Assembly (NCBI GenBank): GCA_902799685.1 | Contig: CADCBO010000027.1 | Coordinates: forward strand, 1-56,295 | Direction: 5' to 3' | Length of the DNA stretch: 56,295 nt | Origin: an uncultured Bacteroidales bacterium | GTDB lineage: Bacteria; Bacteroidota; Bacteroidia; Bacteroidales; Bacteroidaceae | Translations under genes and position numbers: made by a program | Part shown: piece by piece, positions 19,757-29,453 of the stretch | Position numbering within the stretch: position 1 is the first letter of the stretch | Layout of the letters: each line of letters begins with the position of its first letter | Notes under the pieces: generated by a model | Database searches by the model: none | What the model saw: only the letters and a program-made list of their open reading frames with translations | What the model was told of the DNA's origin: nothing

Positions 19757-19885
19757 TACAATTGGGGTCAGGCCCCTTTTGTATCATTTTTGATGATGTA
19801 TATAAAAATAAAGGTTCGGAGTCTGCATCCGAACCTTTTATCTTGAAAACAGTACAAAAGGGGTCTGACCCCAATTGTATCATTT
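19751..19885. repeat. REPIN-like inverted repeat between convergent genes, with internal terminator hairpin
   Basis: Arms 19751-19783 and 19853-19885 are 33 bp with one mismatch. Each arm starts AAATGATACAATTGGGGTCA and itself holds a small palindrome around GGGGTC-GACCCC. The TGA of each outer AAATGA is the stop codon of the flanking gene (DUF3256 on plus, rpmE2 on minus). Between the arms, AAAGGTTCGGA/TCCGAACCTTT (19810-19838) makes a hairpin flanked by A- and T-rich bases, a likely bidirectional terminator. Confidence 0.85.
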
Positions 19886-20137
19886 GCCTCCGCGGCTCTT
19901 TGCGTAGCGGCTCATGAACTTGTCCACGCGTCCGGCGGTATCGACCAGCTTTGACTTACCGGTGAAGAACGGGTGTGAAGTGTTAGAGATTTCAATCTTG
20001 ATCAGCGGATAGGTCTGACCTTCAAATTCGATTGTCTCCTTTGTGGCGCAGGTAGAGCGTGACAGGAAGCAATCACCGTTTGACATGTCCTTGAATACAA
20101 CAGGACGATAGTTCTCGGGATGAATACCTTTTTTCAT
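19880..20137 (-). CDS. rpmE2: 50S ribosomal protein L31, type B
   Basis: 85 residues. [20 protein letters not shown] is the type B L31 start, and the chain has the type B middle insertion ([20 protein letters not shown]). It lacks the CxxC zinc pair of type A L31, as expected for the zinc-independent form. It is the sole gene of its unit, with its own promoter at 20216-20246, and its stop codon lies in the REPIN arm. Confidence 0.96.
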
Positions 20138-20215
20138 AATCTATTTTGTTTGTTAATACTCCATTATGTGCCCGCCGGAATATAGGCGGAACTAAGTCAT
20201 GGGGGTTTCAGCGCG

Positions 20216-20246
20216 CAAAGGTATGATTATTTGTTGTAATGGCAAA
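20216..20246 (-). promoter_or_regulatory. Promoter of rpmE2 (-7 and -33 boxes)
   Basis: On the minus strand TACCTTTG (20216-20223) matches the -7 box, and TTTG (20243-20246) lies exactly 19 bases upstream, the standard -33 spacing. The predicted leader is about 70 nt and contains a GC-rich hairpin (CCGCC/GGCGG around 20170-20190), possibly used for ribosomal-protein feedback, though that is a guess. Confidence 0.65.
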
Positions 20247-20321
20247 ATGTTTGTGGAAGTTTTTGCATAGCAGGAACAATAGGGCAATATAAATGCTAAC
20301 TTAGCGGATATTGAATGTTTT

Positions 20322-22487
20322 ATGTCGGGAATAAGGGAGAGTATTTATTCTAATCTTCTGTTTGAGGACCGTTGGATGATGATGGCTGACGGCCTGGTCA
20401 ATACCCTTAAGGTCTCGTTGTGGTCTATCCTGCTTGCAACCTTAATGGGCGGAATTCTTTGTGCTGTAAGAATGAATTCCCGGAACTGGTCCAGGACTGC
20501 GGTGAAATGGTATGTGGAACTGATGCGCGCTATCCCGCTGCTGGTGTTGCTCCTGCTTTTGTTCTATGTTGTTCTGGCAGATGTCTCCTTATCGTCCCTG
20601 TGGGTCTCCATTATATGCTTTACTCTCTATTTCAGCGCTTATTTCTGTGAGATATTCCGTTCCGGAATAGAGGGTGTGAACCGTGGACAGTGGGAGGCAG
20701 GTTTTGCTTTGGGACTCACTCCTTGGCGTACATTCATGAAGGTGATCCTGCCGCAGGCCCTAAAAAAGATAATCCCGGTCTATAAAGGCCAGATGATCAC
20801 TTTGGTCAAGAGTACGTCGATAATAGGCTATGTGGCTGTTGTGGATTTGACCAAGGCCGGCGATATCATACGATCACGCACGTTTGACGCTTTCTTTCCT
20901 TTGCTGCTTGTGGCTGCGGTCTATCTGTTGCTTACATTGATACTGGGAGCATTGCTGGACCTGTTTGAGAAGAGAGTCACCCCTAAAAGCCGTAATATTA
21001 AAGGGTTACTTGTTCTGGTTGCGGCTATACAGTTGTTCAGTTCCTGTACGGGAAAGACGCAGGATCTGTCGGGGGTAAACAGCATAGAGGATTTTAAAGG
21101 GCACAGTGTAGCTGTTGCAATGGGAAGCTCGTATGACCTTATGCTTTCAGAGATTGAAGGAGTTGATATCATAAGGCTGGGAGTGGGTGAACTGTTGGTG
21201 GCGGTAGAGAAGGGAAGAGCTGATTTCTGTATCATTGACCAGTATCAGGCCCGAATGCTGGATATGGAATCACGCGGCCTGGAAATAAAGTTTGACAACA
21301 TTCTAAAGGGTAATGCCGCTGCCGGATTCCGTAAGGAGGATTCGCTGCTTTGTTCCCGATTCAACGGTTATTTGAGTGGCATCAGAGCCTCCGGAGAGTA
21401 TGACAGATGGCTCGACGAGTGGAAATCGGCTTCAGATTCCATGGCCGATGCCTCCTTCCTGGTTCCCAAAGTTGAGAGTAAACCAGGTGGCAGGTCGCTC
21501 CACGTAGGAATAACCATTACTTATCCGTATCTTTTCCTCAAGGAAAACAGTCTGACCGGTATAGAGGTGGATATGTTCAACAGGTTCTGTGAACGGGCTG
21601 GATATCAGGTTGATTATGAAATATATGATTTCAGCGCTCTTATTCCGGCATTGAACTCCGGTAAAATAGATGTTATCCTGTCACACATGCGCAAGACTGA
21701 AGAACGTGCCAGACAGGTGCTTTTTTCCGATGCGTACATAGAAGGCGGAGGTGCTGCCGTATGCCGTAATGAAAATGGCAGGATTTCCGGCGAACGTGCC
21801 GGAATCCTGAGCCGCATTAAAGACAGTTTCAATAACAATCTTGTTGTGGAACAGCGTTGGAAACTGATGGCGGACGGACTGTGGGTAACCATTCAGATTT
21901 CAGTCCTGTCTATAGTGGCTGCTGTCATTGCAGGAATATTGATGTGCAGGTTGCGTATGAGCCGCAGGCGTACGGTGAGTTCGCCTACGGGATTTGTGAT
22001 TGACCTGTTGCGCGGAATACCGCTGCTGGTTATTCTGATGCTGATGTTCTATGTGATATTCGCTTCATCCAGGATAACAGGAACCTGGGTTACCGTGATG
22101 AGTTTCGGGTTGTACTATGGAGCATATTTCAGTGAGGTGTTCCGCACGGGAATGGAGAGCGTAGAGAGAGGACAATGGGAAGCCGGATTTGCCCTTGGAT
22201 TAGGAAAATTCCAGACATTCCGTAAGATTGCGCTTCCTCAGGCGCTGAGCCGGATAATACCTGTGCTGAAAGGTGAAGTGATTGCGCTTATAAAAATGAC
22301 ATCGGTAGTGGGTTATGTTGCGGTGGTTGATCTGACCAAGGCTAGTGATATAATCAGGGCGCGTACGCTGGATGCGTTTTTCCCGCTTATACTTGTGTCG
22401 GTTGTATATATAATTTTGGCTTGGCTGACAGGTTGGGGACTTAAAATCCTGGAAAGTCAACTTACTCCTAAAAGCAGAGAATCATGA
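20322..22487 (+). CDS. Amino-acid ABC importer: permease - permuted substrate-binding domain - permease fusion
   Basis: 721 residues in one chain. Residues 1-222 and 497-717 are two HisM/GlnP-type permease domains that are clearly duplicates: ADGLVNTLKVS vs ADGLWVTIQIS, and EAA loops EAGFALGLTPWRTFMKVILP (125-144) and EAGFALGLGKFQTFRKIALP (620-639). Between them, a lipoprotein-like segment (KGLLVLVAAIQLFSSC, Cys242) leads to the C-lobe of a SBP_bac_3 protein (250-370: SIEDFKGHSVAVAMGSS, GRADFCIID), then its N-lobe (390-485: LHVGITITYPYLFL, LTGIEVDMF, TEERARQVLFSDAY). The lobes are thus in reverse order. Arg462 and Asp306 match the residues that hold the ligand's carboxylate and amino group. 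The gene overlaps the ATPase gene by 4 bases. Substrate: a polar amino acid, inferred. Confidence 0.85.
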   Translation: MSGIRESIYSNLLFEDRWMMMADGLVNTLKVSLWSILLATLMGGILCAVRMNSRNWSRTAVKWYVELMRAIPLLVLLLLLFYVVLADVSLSSLWVSIICFTLYFSAYFCEIFRSGIEGVNRGQWEAGFALGLTPWRTFMKVILPQALKKIIPVYKGQMITLVKSTSIIGYVAVVDLTKAGDIIRSRTFDAFFPLLLVAAVYLLLTLILGALLDLFEKRVTPKSRNIKGLLVLVAAIQLFSSCTGKTQDLSGVNSIEDFKGHSVAVAMGSSYDLMLSEIEGVDIIRLGVGELLVAVEKGRADFCIIDQYQARMLDMESRGLEIKFDNILKGNAAAGFRKEDSLLCSRFNGYLSGIRASGEYDRWLDEWKSASDSMADASFLVPKVESKPGGRSLHVGITITYPYLFLKENSLTGIEVDMFNRFCERAGYQVDYEIYDFSALIPALNSGKIDVILSHMRKTEERARQVLFSDAYIEGGGAAVCRNENGRISGERAGILSRIKDSFNNNLVVEQRWKLMADGLWVTIQISVLSIVAAVIAGILMCRLRMSRRRTVSSPTGFVIDLLRGIPLLVILMLMFYVIFASSRITGTWVTVMSFGLYYGAYFSEVFRTGMESVERGQWEAGFALGLGKFQTFRKIALPQALSRIIPVLKGEVIALIKMTSVVGYVAVVDLTKASDIIRARTLDAFFPLILVSVVYIILAWLTGWGLKILESQLTPKSRES

Positions 22488-23563
22488 TTAAGGTAAGGCA
22501 TCTTAAGAAAGTTTTCAGAACGCCCGGCGGTGAGGAACTGACGGTTTTGAGGGACATAAACTGTGATATCCGGAAGGGAGAGGTGGTCTCCATAATAGGG
22601 CCGTCAGGTACCGGCAAGAGTACGCTTTTGAGATGTCTGAACCGCCTGGAAGAGCCTACGTCCGGGGTGATAGAGGTTGACGGGACGGATATTCTGGACC
22701 GCAGGACCGACATAAACCTAATCCGGCGCAGGATGGGTATGGTGTTCCAGAACTTCAATCTGTTTGAGCATCTCACCATTCTGGATAATCTGACTATGTG
22801 CCCTGTGACCCTGCTGGGAAAAAGCCGTGAGGAGGCTGAAAAAAAGGGAATGGAACTGCTTGGGACTGTGGGACTTCATGATAAGGCGGGCTGTCTGCCC
22901 CGTGAACTGTCCGGCGGTCAGAAACAGCGCGCTGCAATAGCCCGATGCCTGGCTATGGAACCGGAGATTATCCTCTTTGATGAACCTACATCGGCCTTGG
23001 ATCCTACTATGGTAAGTGAAGTCCTTGCTGTCATCAGGCATCTGGCAAACCAGGGCATGACCATGTGCATAGTGAGTCATGAGATGCAGTTTGTGCGTGA
23101 CGTGAGTACGCGGATCCTGTTCCTTAATGACGGCATCGTCTATGAAGAGGGTACCCCGGAACAGATATTTGAAAAACCGCAGAAACCTGTCACGAGAGCT
23201 TTCATAAACAGGATACGCACCCTTGAGTCAGTTCTTGAAAACCGTCATTTTGACTTGTATGGGTTATTTGGAAAAATCCATACATTCTGCGGTAAATACG
23301 GACTTGGAACAAAGGTCACTGATAAGGTTGAGCATATAACAGAGGAGATGCTTTGCGGGATAATGCCGTTCTGCGGTCCGGTAAGGCTGACCATAGAATA
23401 CAGCGAGAAGACATCCGGGCTCAGCATGACTTTTCGCCAGGAAAATGCAACCGGCAGCATACTTGACGTTACCGATGAAAATTCACTCTCCCTAATGATG
23501 GTCAGGGGAATGAGTACCTCTGTCCAAGAGCCGGAAATCGGTACAGTCTGCATTGAAATCTAA
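22484..23563 (+). CDS. Amino-acid ABC importer ATPase with extra C-terminal domain
   Basis: 359 residues; about 240 is normal for GlnQ/HisP. Walker A GPSGTGKS (39-46), Q-loop VFQNFNLF, signature LSGGQKQR (142-149), Walker B IILFDEP and switch His199 are all intact, so it should hydrolyse ATP. Residues ~245-359 form an additional domain with the order helix, helix, strands (VTDKVEHITEEMLCGIMPFC, VRLTIEYSEK, LSMTFRQEN, then SLSLMMVRGMSTSV). This loosely recalls an RsbW-type GHKL fold that lacks its nucleotide-binding residues. It could be a regulatory domain of the transporter. ATGA overlap couples it to the permease gene. Confidence 0.88.
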   Translation: MIKVRHLKKVFRTPGGEELTVLRDINCDIRKGEVVSIIGPSGTGKSTLLRCLNRLEEPTSGVIEVDGTDILDRRTDINLIRRRMGMVFQNFNLFEHLTILDNLTMCPVTLLGKSREEAEKKGMELLGTVGLHDKAGCLPRELSGGQKQRAAIARCLAMEPEIILFDEPTSALDPTMVSEVLAVIRHLANQGMTMCIVSHEMQFVRDVSTRILFLNDGIVYEEGTPEQIFEKPQKPVTRAFINRIRTLESVLENRHFDLYGLFGKIHTFCGKYGLGTKVTDKVEHITEEMLCGIMPFCGPVRLTIEYSEKTSGLSMTFRQENATGSILDVTDENSLSLMMVRGMSTSVQEPEIGTVCIEI

Positions 23564-23936: not shown

Positions 23937-24938
23937 ATGGTAAACTACAAAGATCTGGGTCTTGTAAATACCCGCGCAATGTTTGCCGCTGCCGTTAAGG
24001 GCGGATATGCTATCCCGGCATTCAATTTCAACACTATGGAGCAGATGCAGGCTATCGTACAGGCTGCAGTCGAGACCAAGTCACCGGTTATCATGCAGGT
24101 ATCCAAGGGTGCCCGTAACTATGCCAACGCTACTATCCTGCGTTACATGGCCGAGGGCGCTGTCGCTTATGCAAAGGAACTGGGTTGCGCTCATCCCGAG
24201 ATCGTGCTTCACCTTGATCACGGTGACAGCTTCGAGCTCTGCAAGGATTGCATCGACATGGGCTTCTCATCAGTTATGATCGACGGCTCTTCACTTCCTT
24301 ATGAGGAGAATATCGCTCTTGCCAAGAAGGTTGTTGACTATGCTCACAAGTATGATGTGACAGTTGAGGCTGAACTGGGCGTTCTGGCTGGTGTTGAGGA
24401 TGAGGTTTCGGCCGCAGAGTCACACTATACCAAGCCTGAGGAGGTAATCGATTTCGCTACCCGTACAGGTTGCGATTCACTTGCTATCTCAATAGGTACC
24501 TCTCACGGTGCACACAAGTTCACTCCTGCTCAGTGCACACTGGTCAACGGCGTTCTTGTTCCACCTCCATTGGCATTCGACGTTCTGGCCGAGATTGAGA
24601 AGAAACTCCCCGGATTCCCCATTGTCCTGCACGGATCATCATCAGTTCCTATGGATGAGGTCAACACAATCAACAAGTACGGTGGCAAGCTTGAGGCCGC
24701 TATCGGTATCCCCGAGGAACAGCTCCGCAAGGCCGCCAAGAGCGCTGTCTGCAAGATCAATATCGACTCTGACTCACGTCTGGCCATGACTGCTGCTATC
24801 CGTAAGCACCTGGCTGAGCATCCCGGAGACTTTGATCCACGTCAGTATCTCAAGCCCGCCCGCGAGAACATGAAGAAGATGTACATCCACAAGATTGTAG
24901 AGGTACTCGGTTCAGACGGCAAGCTTCTGCAGAAGTAA
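23937..24938 (+). CDS. fba: Class II fructose-bisphosphate aldolase
   Basis: 333 residues. Metal- and substrate-binding motifs: HLDHGDSFELCKDCID, TVEAELGVLAG, SIGTSHGAHKF and VLHGSSSVP, giving the zinc histidines and the phosphate loop. This class II enzyme splits fructose-1,6-bisphosphate in glycolysis and works backward in gluconeogenesis. Codon use favours a narrow set (AAG, GAG, CGT, ATC), as in highly expressed genes. It is a single-gene unit with a hairpin terminator after it. Confidence 0.95.
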   Translation: MVNYKDLGLVNTRAMFAAAVKGGYAIPAFNFNTMEQMQAIVQAAVETKSPVIMQVSKGARNYANATILRYMAEGAVAYAKELGCAHPEIVLHLDHGDSFELCKDCIDMGFSSVMIDGSSLPYEENIALAKKVVDYAHKYDVTVEAELGVLAGVEDEVSAAESHYTKPEEVIDFATRTGCDSLAISIGTSHGAHKFTPAQCTLVNGVLVPPPLAFDVLAEIEKKLPGFPIVLHGSSSVPMDEVNTINKYGGKLEAAIGIPEEQLRKAAKSAVCKINIDSDSRLAMTAAIRKHLAEHPGDFDPRQYLKPARENMKKMYIHKIVEVLGSDGKLLQK

Positions 24939-24964
24939 GACACACCATAAACACACATACATTG

Positions 24965-25001
24965 ATAATGGAGAGGACAGGTTCTTCTCCATTATTTTTT
25001 A
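24965..25001 (+). terminator. Rho-independent terminator of fba
   Basis: ATAATGGAGA and TCTCCATTAT pair over an 11-base loop and are followed by a T-run, 27 bases after the fba stop codon. Confidence 0.75.
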
Positions 25002-25075
25002 TCTCATACTAAATAAAATAAGGTTTGGAGCGTTCTAATCCTGAAAATTCATTAAGTTTGTAGGATTATTGCTTG

Positions 25076-27928
25076 ATGTGTATGAATATCCGGTCATTGT
25101 TTGTTGTTCCTTTCCTGGCACTACTTGCATTTGCATCATGTGCAGAGAAAGAATTTAAGACTATTGATGACGGCGTTGTGGTCAACGTGAAGGAGCCTTT
25201 GAAGGATGGCCCCCAGAAGGTGCGTCTGACTGTGATGTCAGACAGAATAATTCGTGTTACCTCTACACCCGACAAATCTTTCCATGACCGTAACAGCTTG
25301 ATTGTGTTGCCCGATGCAGCCAAGGGAGCCGGGTTTGTAATACGTGACAGCAAGGAGGAGGTGGAACTTCAGACCGCGGGCTTAAGCGCGTTCGTGAACA
25401 AGAATGACGGTAGGGTGAGGTTCACTGATGCGGGAGGCAATACGATTACAAACGAGACGGAACCTGCACGGTTCACGCCAATAACCGTGGACGACACTCA
25501 TGGCTATACTACAATAAACCGTTTTGATACCCATGAGGATGAAGGCCTTTACGGATTGGGCCAGCATCAGTCTGACCAATGGAACTATAAGGGGCAGAAC
25601 GAGGAACTCTATCAGTACAACACCAAGATAAGCATTCCGTTTGTAATCTCATCGAACGGATATGGCATCCTGTGGGATTCTTATTCACAGGGACGGTTCG
25701 GTAATACCGAGCCGTACAAACAGCTTAACCGTCTGTTCAAACTGTATGACAAGGATGGAAAGCAGGGCAGCCTTACAGGAACATATTATGCCGGAATGTT
25801 CGGGCGCACGCAGACAAGGCAGGAGGATTCAATTTACTTTGTGGATTCCGAGACTGTGAAAAACCTGCCTCGTTTAGGACAGAGGGTGATTTATGAAGGT
25901 GCTCTTGAGGCTCCTGAATCAGGTACATACACTTTCATTCTTTACTATGCCGGTTATATCCGGGTGTTCCTGGGTGATGAGGAGGTGGTCAAGGAGCGCT
26001 GGCGCACTGCTTGGAACCCTAACTCATACAAGTTCAGCTTTGACATGAAACAGGGCCAGCGATATGACCTGCGTATTGAATGGAGGCCGGACGGCGGCAC
26101 ATCGTACTGCGGACTGCGTGCATACGCTCCGGTGAGCAAGGAACAGGCCGACAAGCTGACCATGTGGAATGAGATGGTCCAGGAGTCAGATTATTATCTG
26201 ATATCGGGCGATGATATGGACGGTGTGATAAGCGGTCTGCATACACTGGTAGGCGGCCCCAACATGCTGCCCAAGTGGGCAATGGGATTTTGGCAGAGCC
26301 GTGAGCACTATCAGAATCAGGATGAGGTGGTGCAGACTGTACGTGAGTTCCGTCGTCGCGGCATAGGCTTGGACAACATTGTCCAGGACTGGAACTACTG
26401 GAAGCAGGATGCATGGGGATCGCATGAATTTGACGAGACCCGTTATCCTGATCCAAAGAGTATGGTGGACCGCGTGCACGGCATGAACGCCCATCTTATG
26501 ATTTCGGTCTGGCCCAAGTTCTATGCATCGACCGAACATTACAAGGAGTTTGATGCCAACGGCTGGATGTACACGCGGGCCGTTGAGGACAGCATACGGG
26601 ACTGGGTGGGTCCGGGTTACATAGGCTCGTTCTATGATGCCTATTCGGCCGGTGCACGCGAGTTGTTCTGGAACCAGCTCAAGGACCATCTGTACGGCTA
26701 TGGCATCGATGCCTGGTGGATGGATGCCAGCGAGCCCAATATCCGTGATTGCGTGCCTATGGACTATTGGAAGGCATTGTGCGGACCTACGGCGTTGGGC
26801 TCATCGACAGAGTATCTTATGGCATATTCACTCATGAATGCCCAGGCCATCTACGAGGGACTCATGAAGGAGGATTCTACCAAGCGTGTGTTCCAGTTGA
26901 CTCGCTCAGGATTTGCAGGACTTCAGCGTTACTCAACTGCATCCTGGAGTGGTGACATAGGTACCAGATGGGAGGATATGCGTTCTCAGATTACAGCCGG
27001 CATGAACTATTCGCTTTGCGGTAACCCGTACTGGACAATGGACATAGGCGGTTTCTGTGTTGAGAACCGCTATGCCAATGCACAGCGTTTCTATGACCGC
27101 TCACCGGTGGAGACCGCTGACCTTAAGGAGTGGCGTGAGTTACAGACCCGGTGGTATCAGTTCGGCACTTTCTGTCCGCTTTACCGCGCCCATGGTCAGT
27201 TCCCTCTGCGTGAGGTGTGGAACATTGCTCCGTCCAATCATCCCGCATACAGGTCTATTGTATATTATAACCGTATGCGTTACCGTCTTATGCCGTATAT
27301 TTACTCTCTTGCAGGACATGCATGGCTTGAAGGCAATATCATCATGCGTGGTCTGGTTATGGATTACACGGACGATCCGGTGGCCCGCGATGTATCCGAC
27401 CAGTATATGTTCGGGCCATCCCTTATGGTTTGCCCGGTGTATGAATACAGGGCGACAACCAGGGATGTCTATCTTCCGGAGGGCCATGTGTGGTATGACT
27501 ATTACAACGATTCGGTATTTGCCGGCGGCCAGACCATAGTTGCCGATGCTCCTTACGAGCGTATCCCGCTGTTCGTGCCTTCGGGCGCAATTCTGGTATC
27601 GGGCAAGGATGTGAATTATGTTGATGAGCGTCCTGCCGACGAACTTACAGTTGATTTATACTCAGGCAGTAACGGCCAGTTCCTGCTGTATGAGGATGAC
27701 GGAACCACAAACGCATATCAGGATGGGGCATACTCTGTAATACCCATTTCATTTACTGAAGATGAACACAGCTGCGTCATCACATTGGGTCAGATAGCGG
27801 GTAATTACAAGGCTTTCAGCGGCAAGCGAAAGTTCAAGATCCGTTATCACATGCCTGGACGGGTAGTGGATGCCCAAATGGATTATACAGGTGACGCGTT
27901 TGTGCGTTACCACATGATATTGAGATAA
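25076..27928 (+). CDS. GH31 alpha-xylosidase with PA14 insert, lipoprotein
   Basis: About 950 residues; starts at 25076 or 25082 are both reasonable, the latter giving MNIRSLFVVPFLALLAFASC with lipobox Cys20. An acidic-mixed CAEKEF follows, compatible with surface display. The GH31 N-terminal sandwich (to ~230) is followed by a PA14 domain (~240-370: RVIYEGALEAPESGTYTFIL) and the (beta/alpha)8 barrel, with nucleophile Asp in WWMDASEP (codon at 26723) and acid/base Asp in SGDIGTRWED (codon at 26954). The same size and PA14 insertion are known from xyloglucan alpha-xylosidases of gut Bacteroides. Followed by xylB and xylA, so released xylose feeds straight into catabolism. Confidence 0.9.
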   Translation: MCMNIRSLFVVPFLALLAFASCAEKEFKTIDDGVVVNVKEPLKDGPQKVRLTVMSDRIIRVTSTPDKSFHDRNSLIVLPDAAKGAGFVIRDSKEEVELQTAGLSAFVNKNDGRVRFTDAGGNTITNETEPARFTPITVDDTHGYTTINRFDTHEDEGLYGLGQHQSDQWNYKGQNEELYQYNTKISIPFVISSNGYGILWDSYSQGRFGNTEPYKQLNRLFKLYDKDGKQGSLTGTYYAGMFGRTQTRQEDSIYFVDSETVKNLPRLGQRVIYEGALEAPESGTYTFILYYAGYIRVFLGDEEVVKERWRTAWNPNSYKFSFDMKQGQRYDLRIEWRPDGGTSYCGLRAYAPVSKEQADKLTMWNEMVQESDYYLISGDDMDGVISGLHTLVGGPNMLPKWAMGFWQSREHYQNQDEVVQTVREFRRRGIGLDNIVQDWNYWKQDAWGSHEFDETRYPDPKSMVDRVHGMNAHLMISVWPKFYASTEHYKEFDANGWMYTRAVEDSIRDWVGPGYIGSFYDAYSAGARELFWNQLKDHLYGYGIDAWWMDASEPNIRDCVPMDYWKALCGPTALGSSTEYLMAYSLMNAQAIYEGLMKEDSTKRVFQLTRSGFAGLQRYSTASWSGDIGTRWEDMRSQITAGMNYSLCGNPYWTMDIGGFCVENRYANAQRFYDRSPVETADLKEWRELQTRWYQFGTFCPLYRAHGQFPLREVWNIAPSNHPAYRSIVYYNRMRYRLMPYIYSLAGHAWLEGNIIMRGLVMDYTDDPVARDVSDQYMFGPSLMVCPVYEYRATTRDVYLPEGHVWYDYYNDSVFAGGQTIVADAPYERIPLFVPSGAILVSGKDVNYVDERPADELTVDLYSGSNGQFLLYEDDGTTNAYQDGAYSVIPISFTEDEHSCVITLGQIAGNYKAFSGKRKFKIRYHMPGRVVDAQMDYTGDAFVRYHMILR

Positions 27929-27953
27929 TTACTAAAACCAAACAAATAAACTT

Positions 27954-29453
27954 ATGAAGAAATATCTGTTAGGCTATGACATAGGCAGCTCCTCGGTGAA
28001 GGCCAGCCTGGTGTCAATTGAGACTGGAAAGAGTGTTGCATCGGCTTTTTATCCCGACAGCGAGGCACCCATAAAGGCCCTCAATCCGGGTTGGGCCGAG
28101 CAGGAACCCGATGACTGGTGGACATACCTCAAGAACGTGACTGCCAAGGTCATGCAGATGTCAGGCGCAAAGGGCAATGACATTGAGGCTATCGGTATCT
28201 CATATCAGATGCACGGTCTGGTGTGCGTTGACAAGAACGGCAAGGCTCTGCGTCCTGCAATTATCTGGTGTGACTCTCGTGCAGTACCATACGGCGACAA
28301 GGCATTCCGCGAGATAGGTAAGGGCCAGTGCCTTACAAACCTGCTTAATTCACCGGGTAATTTCACCGCCGCCAAGTTGGCATGGGTAAAGGAGAACGAG
28401 CCCAAGCTATATGAGAAAATTGACAAGATAATGCTTCCGGGTGACTACATTGCGCTTCGTCTTACAGGTACCACCTGCACCACGGTGTCGGGTCTGTCGG
28501 AGGGCATGATGTGGAACTTCAAGGAGAATGATGTGGCTGATTTCCTGCTTGATTACTATGGATTCAGCAAGTCTCTCATACCAGAGATAAGGTCTACATT
28601 CTCAGAGCAGGGCAGAGTGTCGCTTGCAGCCTCCAAGGAGCTTGGAATAGAGGCCGGCATCCCGGTGACATACCGTGCAGGTGACCAGCCCAACAATGCT
28701 CTGTCACTGAACGTGTTTGAGCCGGGTGAGATTGCCGCTACGGCAGGAACATCGGGAGTGGTGTATGGCGTGAACGGTGCCGTGAACTTTGATCCGCAGT
28801 CAAGGGTGAACACCTTTGCACATGTGAACCATACAAACAAGCAGACCCGTCTGGGCGTTCTGCTGTGCATAAACGGTACAGGTATATTGAACGCATGGAC
28901 GCGCCGTAACATAATGCTTGAAGGTCTTTCATACGGTGATATGAACAAGATTGCCCAGAGCATTCCCGTGGGTTCGGACGGCGTAAGCGTGCTGCCGTTC
29001 GGAAACGGTGCAGAGCGTGTACTGGGCAACCGCAACGTGGGTTGCAGCATACATGGTTTCAGCTTCAACATTCACAACCGCAACCATCTGGCACGTGCCG
29101 TGCAGGAGGGTATAGTATTCTCATTCAAGTACGGTATGGACGTTATGGTCGAGATGGGTATGGAGATTTCAAAGATACATGCAGGCAATGCCAACATGTT
29201 CCTGAATCCTGTGTTCCGCGAGACTCTGGCCGGCATAACTGGTGCTACCATTGAACTGTATGATACTGACGGCTCTGTAGGTGCAGCCAAGGGTGCAGGT
29301 ATGGGTGCAGGTGTCTATAAGAATCATGACGAGGCATTCTCAACGCTTGAGAAACTCAACGTCATTGAGCCTGACAAGAAACTGGTTCCGCAGTATGAGG
29401 AGGCATACGCCCGTTGGAAGCGCATCCTCAATATGTATCTCAACGAATTCTGA
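27954..29453 (+). CDS. xylB: Xylulokinase
   Basis: 499 residues, FGGY kinase. The N-terminal phosphate loop is LLGYDIGSSSVKASLV; the substrate-site block GISYQMHGLVCVDKNG and the C-terminal adenine block GAAKGAGMGAGVY are present. The sequence IIWCDSRAVPYG matches the FGGY family signature. It phosphorylates D-xylulose to xylulose-5-phosphate for the pentose phosphate pathway. It starts 25 bases after the alpha-xylosidase gene, so these two are probably one transcript. Confidence 0.93.
   Translation: MKKYLLGYDIGSSSVKASLVSIETGKSVASAFYPDSEAPIKALNPGWAEQEPDDWWTYLKNVTAKVMQMSGAKGNDIEAIGISYQMHGLVCVDKNGKALRPAIIWCDSRAVPYGDKAFREIGKGQCLTNLLNSPGNFTAAKLAWVKENEPKLYEKIDKIMLPGDYIALRLTGTTCTTVSGLSEGMMWNFKENDVADFLLDYYGFSKSLIPEIRSTFSEQGRVSLAASKELGIEAGIPVTYRAGDQPNNALSLNVFEPGEIAATAGTSGVVYGVNGAVNFDPQSRVNTFAHVNHTNKQTRLGVLLCINGTGILNAWTRRNIMLEGLSYGDMNKIAQSIPVGSDGVSVLPFGNGAERVLGNRNVGCSIHGFSFNIHNRNHLARAVQEGIVFSFKYGMDVMVEMGMEISKIHAGNANMFLNPVFRETLAGITGATIELYDTDGSVGAAKGAGMGAGVYKNHDEAFSTLEKLNVIEPDKKLVPQYEEAYARWKRILNMYLNEF

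Follow-up and report, generated by a model that had tools for sequence, protein, structure and literature searches.

The window, that is the whole stretch of 56,295 nucleotides analysed here, comes from a metagenome assembly (85.8% complete) and carries at 20322-22487, on the + strand like the parts of this gene and of the next one, an intact ORF encoding a chain of 721 residues. Pfam recognized two BPD_transp_1 and two SBP_bac_3 stretches in this chain, in the order permease, C-terminal half (C) of a substrate-binding protein (SBP), N-terminal half (N) and permease. The top NCBIfam matches were polar amino-acid permeases, such as ectoine_ehuD at residues 516-713 (E 7.9e-84) in permease 2 (residues 500-721; 21819..22484), which was also placed by a permease tree (see below). 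Permease 1 (residues 1-226; 20322..20999), a polar amino-acid ABC permease domain according to Pfam (BPD_transp_1) and to the same tree, is a separate gene in eight loci of the same genus. It is followed by a former lipoprotein signal peptide, presumably now an internal membrane-crossing segment, which ends in the lipobox-like LFSSC242 (residues 227-242; 21000..21047). Then come the C half (residues 250-372; 21069..21437), recognized by phmmer against the PDB, a family HMM and AlphaFold2 (AF2), the linker between the former C- and N-termini (residues 373-387; 21438..21482), and the N half (residues 388-487; 21483..21782), recognized by Pfam (SBP_bac_3), phmmer against the PDB and AF2.

The next gene starts within the permease stop (ATGA overlap) and encodes an ABC ATPase of 359 residues, with a GlnQ-like core (residues 1-240; 22484..23203; Pfam ABC_tran) and a C-terminal domain (residues 241-359; 23204..23560). 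Upstream of the 721-residue ORF lie 565 bases without a called gene (19757-20321), and an Rfam search of the window, including this gap, returned 0 matches at gathering scores. Downstream, the translations at 23937-29453 indicate a likely class II fructose-bisphosphate aldolase, a glycoside hydrolase and a xylulokinase, genes with no evident link to the importer.

The swapped order of the receptor halves was clearly visible in comparisons with solved amino-acid SBPs. Using phmmer, residues 250-375 matched the C-terminal part of these proteins (6svf_A 112-228, E 1.2e-10). For residues 386-493, the match in these chains was N-terminal (6svf_A 12-105, E 4.7e-13), and AncQR was matched too (4zv1_A, E 2e-19). 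A profile built from 29 C-N units matched 281 PDB sequences; among the best 60 of these 281, 58 single or otherwise canonical chains each aligned in two stretches that do not join, and a single stretch bridging C to N occurred in two tandem proteins alone, 6h30 (GlnPQ SBD1-SBD2, profile positions 3-234 aligned to chain 98-326) and 4q0c (BvgS, profile positions 12-239 aligned to chain 199-435). Separate matches in swapped order, together with this bridging of tandem chains, indicate that the C-N order is real and not a chance likeness, and confirm the arrangement permease, C-lobe, N-lobe, permease initially proposed. Both halves are thus homologous to SBP_bac_3 (PF00497), but they do not follow its canonical N-then-C order.

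From a structural point of view, AF2 modelling of residues 250-505 with a 29-row alignment gave a pLDDT of 86.9 and a pTM of 0.80, with values below 50 only in the last 17 residues, and in this model the region is one confident domain. The single SBP fold of circularly permuted halves that had been claimed was borne out by this prediction, in line with the swapped PDB matches. By prediction and statistics, the receptor has the swapped halves and joined old ends of a naturally circularly permuted SBP. A Foldseek search of the model, which follows chain order, yielded no close match, the top being HisG chains (TM 0.35-0.43) and the GlnPQ tandem 6h30 ranking 13 (TMq 0.35, rmsd 19.4); such poor matches are expected from a permuted chain, yet are no positive proof of permutation. 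One structural claim had to be corrected, namely that the chain had been opened at the hinge, as the new ends sit in lobe 2 instead. In 6svf, the N-half match ends at residue 107 and the C-half match begins at 112, a break that presumably lies roughly 10-20 residues beyond the first hinge crossing, inside lobe 2.

The sites singled out previously, i.e., Arg462 in TEER (codon 21705-21707), Asp306 in GRADFCIID (codon 21237-21239) and FSSC at 239-242, were all found at those positions. Arg462 and Asp306 are aligned with solved SBPs, and by this alignment they would face one cleft. Arg occupies the 462 position in 226 of 229 C-N units and Asp the 306 position in 145 of the same 229 (63%), while the residues preceding TEER (HMRK) are unlike those of typical SBPs. 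Homology points to a polar amino acid or similar solute as the probable ligand class.

The permutation is not special to the window chain; it is how the receptors of a whole multi-phylum SBP-permease family are normally built. Searches covered 41 related genomes for the window protein, 395 genomes of the phylum for the C-N profile, and named genomes for a permease profile. The last of these gave 597 pattern matches and 592 relatives, the best 80 of which were kept; canonical fusions may be under-sampled, because both permease search patterns derive from this permease subfamily. HMMs for C, N and permease (P), trained on this family, were run on the ORFs of the collected loci, deduplicated only if identical, and 180 distinct ORFs displayed any C, N or P match, 29 of them P only. 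Leaving out 18 edge-touching ORFs and 25 complete P-only ORFs, 137 complete C/N-bearing ORFs were considered. The profile search for the same domain order suggested alongside the initial annotation recovered the C-N order in 135 of these 137 ORFs, as (C-N)n with n = 1-4, with or without a permease: CNP (57), CNCNP (29), CN alone (26), CNCNCNP (14), CNCNCNCNP (5), PCN (3) and PCNP (1, the window). The two NC exceptions are other canonical proteins (L123 and L141), outside the permease genes of these operons. Edge-touching ORFs that deviated from (C-N)n were NCNCNP (L121), NCNP (L143) and CNCP (L064).

C/N domains were carried by 78 of the 80 named loci (best 80 of 592), the two others (L154 and L159) being truncated within the permease or shortly ahead of it. 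Among these best 80 of 592, the permuted receptor is, going by the taxon names on record, present in Bacteroidota, Pseudomonadota, Bacillota and others, with C-N-permease loci in Methylobacter tundripaludum, Nitrosomonas communis, Candidatus Nitrotoga fabula, Novosphingobium arvoryzae and Candidatus Formimonas warabiya (L129, L140, L112, L123 and L118, respectively); many further loci are metagenome bins, whose taxon names may err. Across the phylum, the C-N profile matched over its full length at E 1e-60 or better in 43 of the 395 genomes, and weaker matches, among those listed, span one half only. A strict lipobox pattern was matched in 113 of 146 ORFs, the misses being cut or looser lipoboxes and others without Cys. 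Five loci (L128, L129, L139, L142 and L162) display four tandem permuted SBPs ahead of one permease, in ORFs of about 1250 residues. The permuted receptor is thus real and family-wide.

The joining of permease 1 to the receptor was found in the window's genome only: 15 of 37 genomes of the genus gave strong matches, and no fusion was found in the other 36 same-genus genomes searched. In all eight orthologous same-genus loci, permease 1 is a gene of its own with a C-terminal TPKSR(K/Q)I, and its stop codon overlaps, as ATGA, with that at which the next gene starts; this second gene opens with a lipoprotein signal. Since permease 1 is separate in these eight loci, the single chain appears as a late and so far private fusion. 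In the window, the ATGA overlap is lost and the frame runs through, with a net 5-base gap and the start codon gone. An assembly or sequencing artefact, the organism in fact having two genes like its relatives, would fit both the absence of the fusion from the other 36 genomes and the metagenome-type origin of the window. Frame repair alone would nevertheless give no start, as neither ATG nor GTG was found in any frame at 20940-21060, and the junction departs from its relatives by substitutions in addition to the net gap. The missing start codon makes a junction error unlikely, and we give the artefact only a small chance; the single chain is probably real and private to this genome.

The lipobox-like segment, at the gene start in the eight orthologues, is internal in the window. 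Its interpretation as a membrane crossing with a consistent topology was retained, on the basis of the sequence and of known permease topology: as permease 1 ends in the cytoplasm and the SBP lies outside, the old signal should have to cross the membrane. It is not a designed linker, since in the eight orthologous loci it corresponds to the lipoprotein signal at the N-terminus of the second gene's product. Other joined chains were observed in the same genus. At L033:3560-6253, L034:1111-3864 and L038:5765-8512, a permease, a permuted SBP, a hydrophobic segment, an ABC ATPase and an RsbW-like tail form one chain of about 900 residues; these permease-C-N fusions arose independently of that of the window, and the internal lipobox Cys was retained in L033 and L038 and gone in L034, judging by sequence. 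Among all the loci analysed, a permuted SBP, a permease and an ABC ATPase share a single chain at L032:1241-4027, L035:4290-6965, L038:14865-17588 and L137:4975-7848.

In a tree of 60 permease rows from 43 hand-chosen loci, permease 1 grouped with the first (support 97/92), and permease 2 with the second (support 98/95), of two C-N-permease genes in other Bacteroidales (L088/L089), and the two permeases formed two sister groups. These groupings indicate that a heterodimer is old. They suggest an old pair of C-N-permease genes, the first receptor of which would have been lost in the window's lineage before the late fusion. The heteromeric core with one built-in receptor that had been claimed is supported as regards two different permeases and one receptor.

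The ATPase displays intact GPSGTGKST, LSGGQKQR and DEPTSALDP motifs by eye, and its tail of 119 extra residues was assigned a degenerate RsbW/SpoIIAB-like GHKL fold on the basis of AF2, Foldseek, hhalign and Pfam searches on family rows. A tail HMM detected this domain in 76 of the 82 ATPase-like ORFs present in the named loci (best 80 of 592), the six others being two other ABC proteins and four cut, masked or broken ORFs. The AF2 model of the tail (pLDDT 95.4, pTM 0.88) had SpoIIAB and RsbW as its best Foldseek matches (1tid_A, TMq 0.75, E 4.1e-5), in line with hhalign of the tail versus 10 RsbW-type proteins (probability 97.2, E 3.4e-11). With E values of 0.1 or lower (best 1.4e-7), Pfam HATPase_c_2 was recognized in 24 of the 61 tail rows, but not in that of the window, and the family search of the window's genome did not report it for this tail either. 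NCBIfam gave just scattered single or double weak matches on the 61 rows, and a PDB sequence search with the tail profile, with E values allowed up to 10, brought up 5 chains, none of them convincing. The tail thus shares the fold of the SpoIIAB/RsbW anti-sigma kinases, but differs from the RsbW proteins of the operons in being joined to an ABC ATPase and in lacking their ATP-binding features. The N-box Asn, Asp-x-Gly and ATP lid are invariant in 10 RsbW rows from the operons and from the window's genome; in the tail, Asn is not among the five commonest residues of the aligned column and the ATP-lid segment is deleted in the alignment. Lacking the N-box Asn and the ATP lid, the tail is probably a non-catalytic RsbW relative.

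Partner-switch genes were indeed found close to some of these importers. With HMMs whose seeds were taken from the same loci, PP2C was detected in 19, STAS in 18 and RsbW in 15 of the 80 named loci (best 80 of 592), with all three in 10; two of the RsbW matches are weak (L158, the ATPase's own tail, and L121, partial), and the PP2C match in L161 is weaker than the rest. Pfam confirmed ten representatives, among them SpoIIE with dCache and HAMP, STAS, HATPase_c_2 and one NMT1-type SBP. Gene rows include PP2C, RsbW, STAS, C-N-permease and ATPase in L109, and PP2C, (C-N)3-permease, ATPase and STAS in L140. One SpoIIE gene, which also encodes an RsbW domain, lies on another contig of the window's genome, with a 101-residue STAS gene two genes further. 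In this region (L169:3103-8250, contig 11), an SBP, the dCache-HAMP-PP2C-RsbW protein, a cation antiporter-like gene and the STAS gene stand in a row, and the SBP resembles by eye the NMT1-type protein of L112. In another genome of the genus, a PP2C (SpoIIE) match lies just past a C-N-permease/ATPase pair (L047:2463-3035, contig 18 of G012).

These neighbourhoods, observed in part of the best 80 of 592 loci, would also fit a sensor rather than an importer, in which the ABC complex reports its solute to a partner-switching module via the RsbW-like tail. Against this stand the intact ATPase motifs, the absence of PP2C, RsbW and STAS genes from the examined parts of the window, and the occurrence of PP2C in the genus with or without the transporter, so that we consider a sensor improbable. 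At the genus level, the SpoIIE family occurred in 34 of 37 genomes, and 18 of the 37 matched the C-N profile; no link between the two was found, PP2C being present in 18/18 genomes with the transporter and in 16/19 without. As PP2C is common without the transporter, control of the importer by partner switching, which may operate, is not supported by presence and absence within the window's genus, and is better argued outside it. A multi-phylum class of importers with permuted amino-acid receptors, in which a pseudo-RsbW tail on the ATPase would dock an anti-anti-sigma (STAS) protein and a PP2C/RsbW switch would gate import without a sigma factor, is conceivable but on balance doubtful.

Which halves pair with each other was addressed within the family. 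Measured between model ends, the C-to-N linker keeps to 6-12 residues (n 229, sd 1.4), and the N-to-C gap separating one unit from the next ranges from -11 to 16 (n 83, sd 4.8), a clear difference in spread (Levene p 6e-23). In tandem arrays, co-divergence of the N half with the preceding C half reached r 0.847, versus 0.307 with the following one (canonical pairing); the bootstrap difference was 0.541 (0.440-0.644), and 1000/1000 replicates favoured C-N (78 C-N-C triplets from 52 ORFs). The stable linker and the co-divergence argue for C-N as the unit, and the 26 complete stand-alone C-N proteins contain no further half that could serve as a partner. Values of dN/dS (against 6 orthologues; one N value not computable) were 0.05-0.16 in permease 1, C, N and permease 2, and by this measure the four parts are under purifying selection; the 21-codon signal segment is too short and divergent for this measure.

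Co-divergence cannot separate pairing within one chain from pairing across the two chains of a domain-swapped homodimer, and 6svf, among the closest solved relatives, is T. maritima ArgBP, known for such swapping. AF2 nevertheless folds the monomer, and no second receptor copy is expected beside two different permeases, which makes a swap very unlikely. Hardly credible, finally, is that the halves are two different incomplete SBPs, decay remnants of a canonical SBP-permease-SBP-permease gene, a reading rejected despite the fact that a canonical tandem trimmed at both ends would give the same order and that the L064 array, cut by the locus edge, has a partial extra C half, given the 26 complete stand-alone C-N and 57 complete C-N-permease ORFs without another half, the confident single-domain AF2 model, the co-divergence within C-N, and a dN/dS of about 0.05-0.16 in both halves.

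We therefore regard it as highly probable that the 721-residue gene encodes both membrane halves and a naturally permuted SBP_bac_3 receptor of an ABC importer, the C-N unit being family-wide and the fusion private. The chain would form the membrane halves and receptor of an importer whose solute is a polar amino acid or a similar compound, with the ATPase supplied by the next gene. In the receptor, the old ends would be joined by the short linker and the new ends would be adjacent in lobe 2, such that the upstream membrane anchor and downstream permease 2 hold the same lobe. The receptor may then bind its ligand and hand it over to the permease-1/permease-2 heterodimer for transport. The permutation probably originated from tandem duplication of a canonical N-C domain, with loss of the outer halves. 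Later, in this genome, a small deletion probably took the stop of permease 1 and the start codon of the next gene, fusing the two genes in frame and leaving the old lipoprotein signal as the putative membrane crossing between permease 1 and the receptor.

Known systems share part of these features. L. lactis GlnPQ also has tandem SBP_bac_3 receptors fused ahead of a permease, and a separate GlnQ-like ATPase, but its domains are canonical (N-C) where those of the window family are C-N; compared with GlnPQ, the window has a second permease unlike the first, and an RsbW-like tail on the ATPase (PMC8025302). Of the features of GlnP-type SBD-permease proteins, the window chain has the 5-TM polar amino-acid permease but not the canonical SBD. 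Glycine-betaine binding proteins belong to another SBP family and ligand class; one of them, 2B4L, is B. subtilis OpuAC. Like the window receptor, this type II SBP family is naturally permuted: the CPSARST paper (PMC2395249) describes circular permutation among 2B4L, 1R9L and 1SW1, and relatives fused to a permease are represented by L. lactis OpuABC (PMC2861598). The OpuA ATPase bears CBS domains, whereas that of the window bears the RsbW-like tail. Treponema TpMglB-2 is a naturally permuted, tethered SBP, for which the authors put forward a class "Type Ic/Cluster Bc" and suggested that tethering and permutation are connected; it differs from the window receptor by its sugar-binding type I fold, by the moving of only three strands and by the lack of a permease fusion (PMC4990184). 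An engineered permuted ribose-binding protein is mentioned in PMC10601554. In open-licence literature, we found no description of permuted polar amino-acid SBPs of this family, nor of this family as importers tied to partner switching.

Permuted amino-acid receptors have thus been coupled to permeases repeatedly in nature, with between one and four receptor copies. As C-N units are split or misread by domain libraries, domain counts and homology models are likely to be wrong for these proteins. The RsbW-like tail and the neighbouring partner-switch genes suggest an undescribed way to control an importer. Lastly, the idea raised for TpMglB-2, that permutation serves tethering, can be put to a direct test by comparing members of one family in which the receptor is lone, single, tandem or fused.
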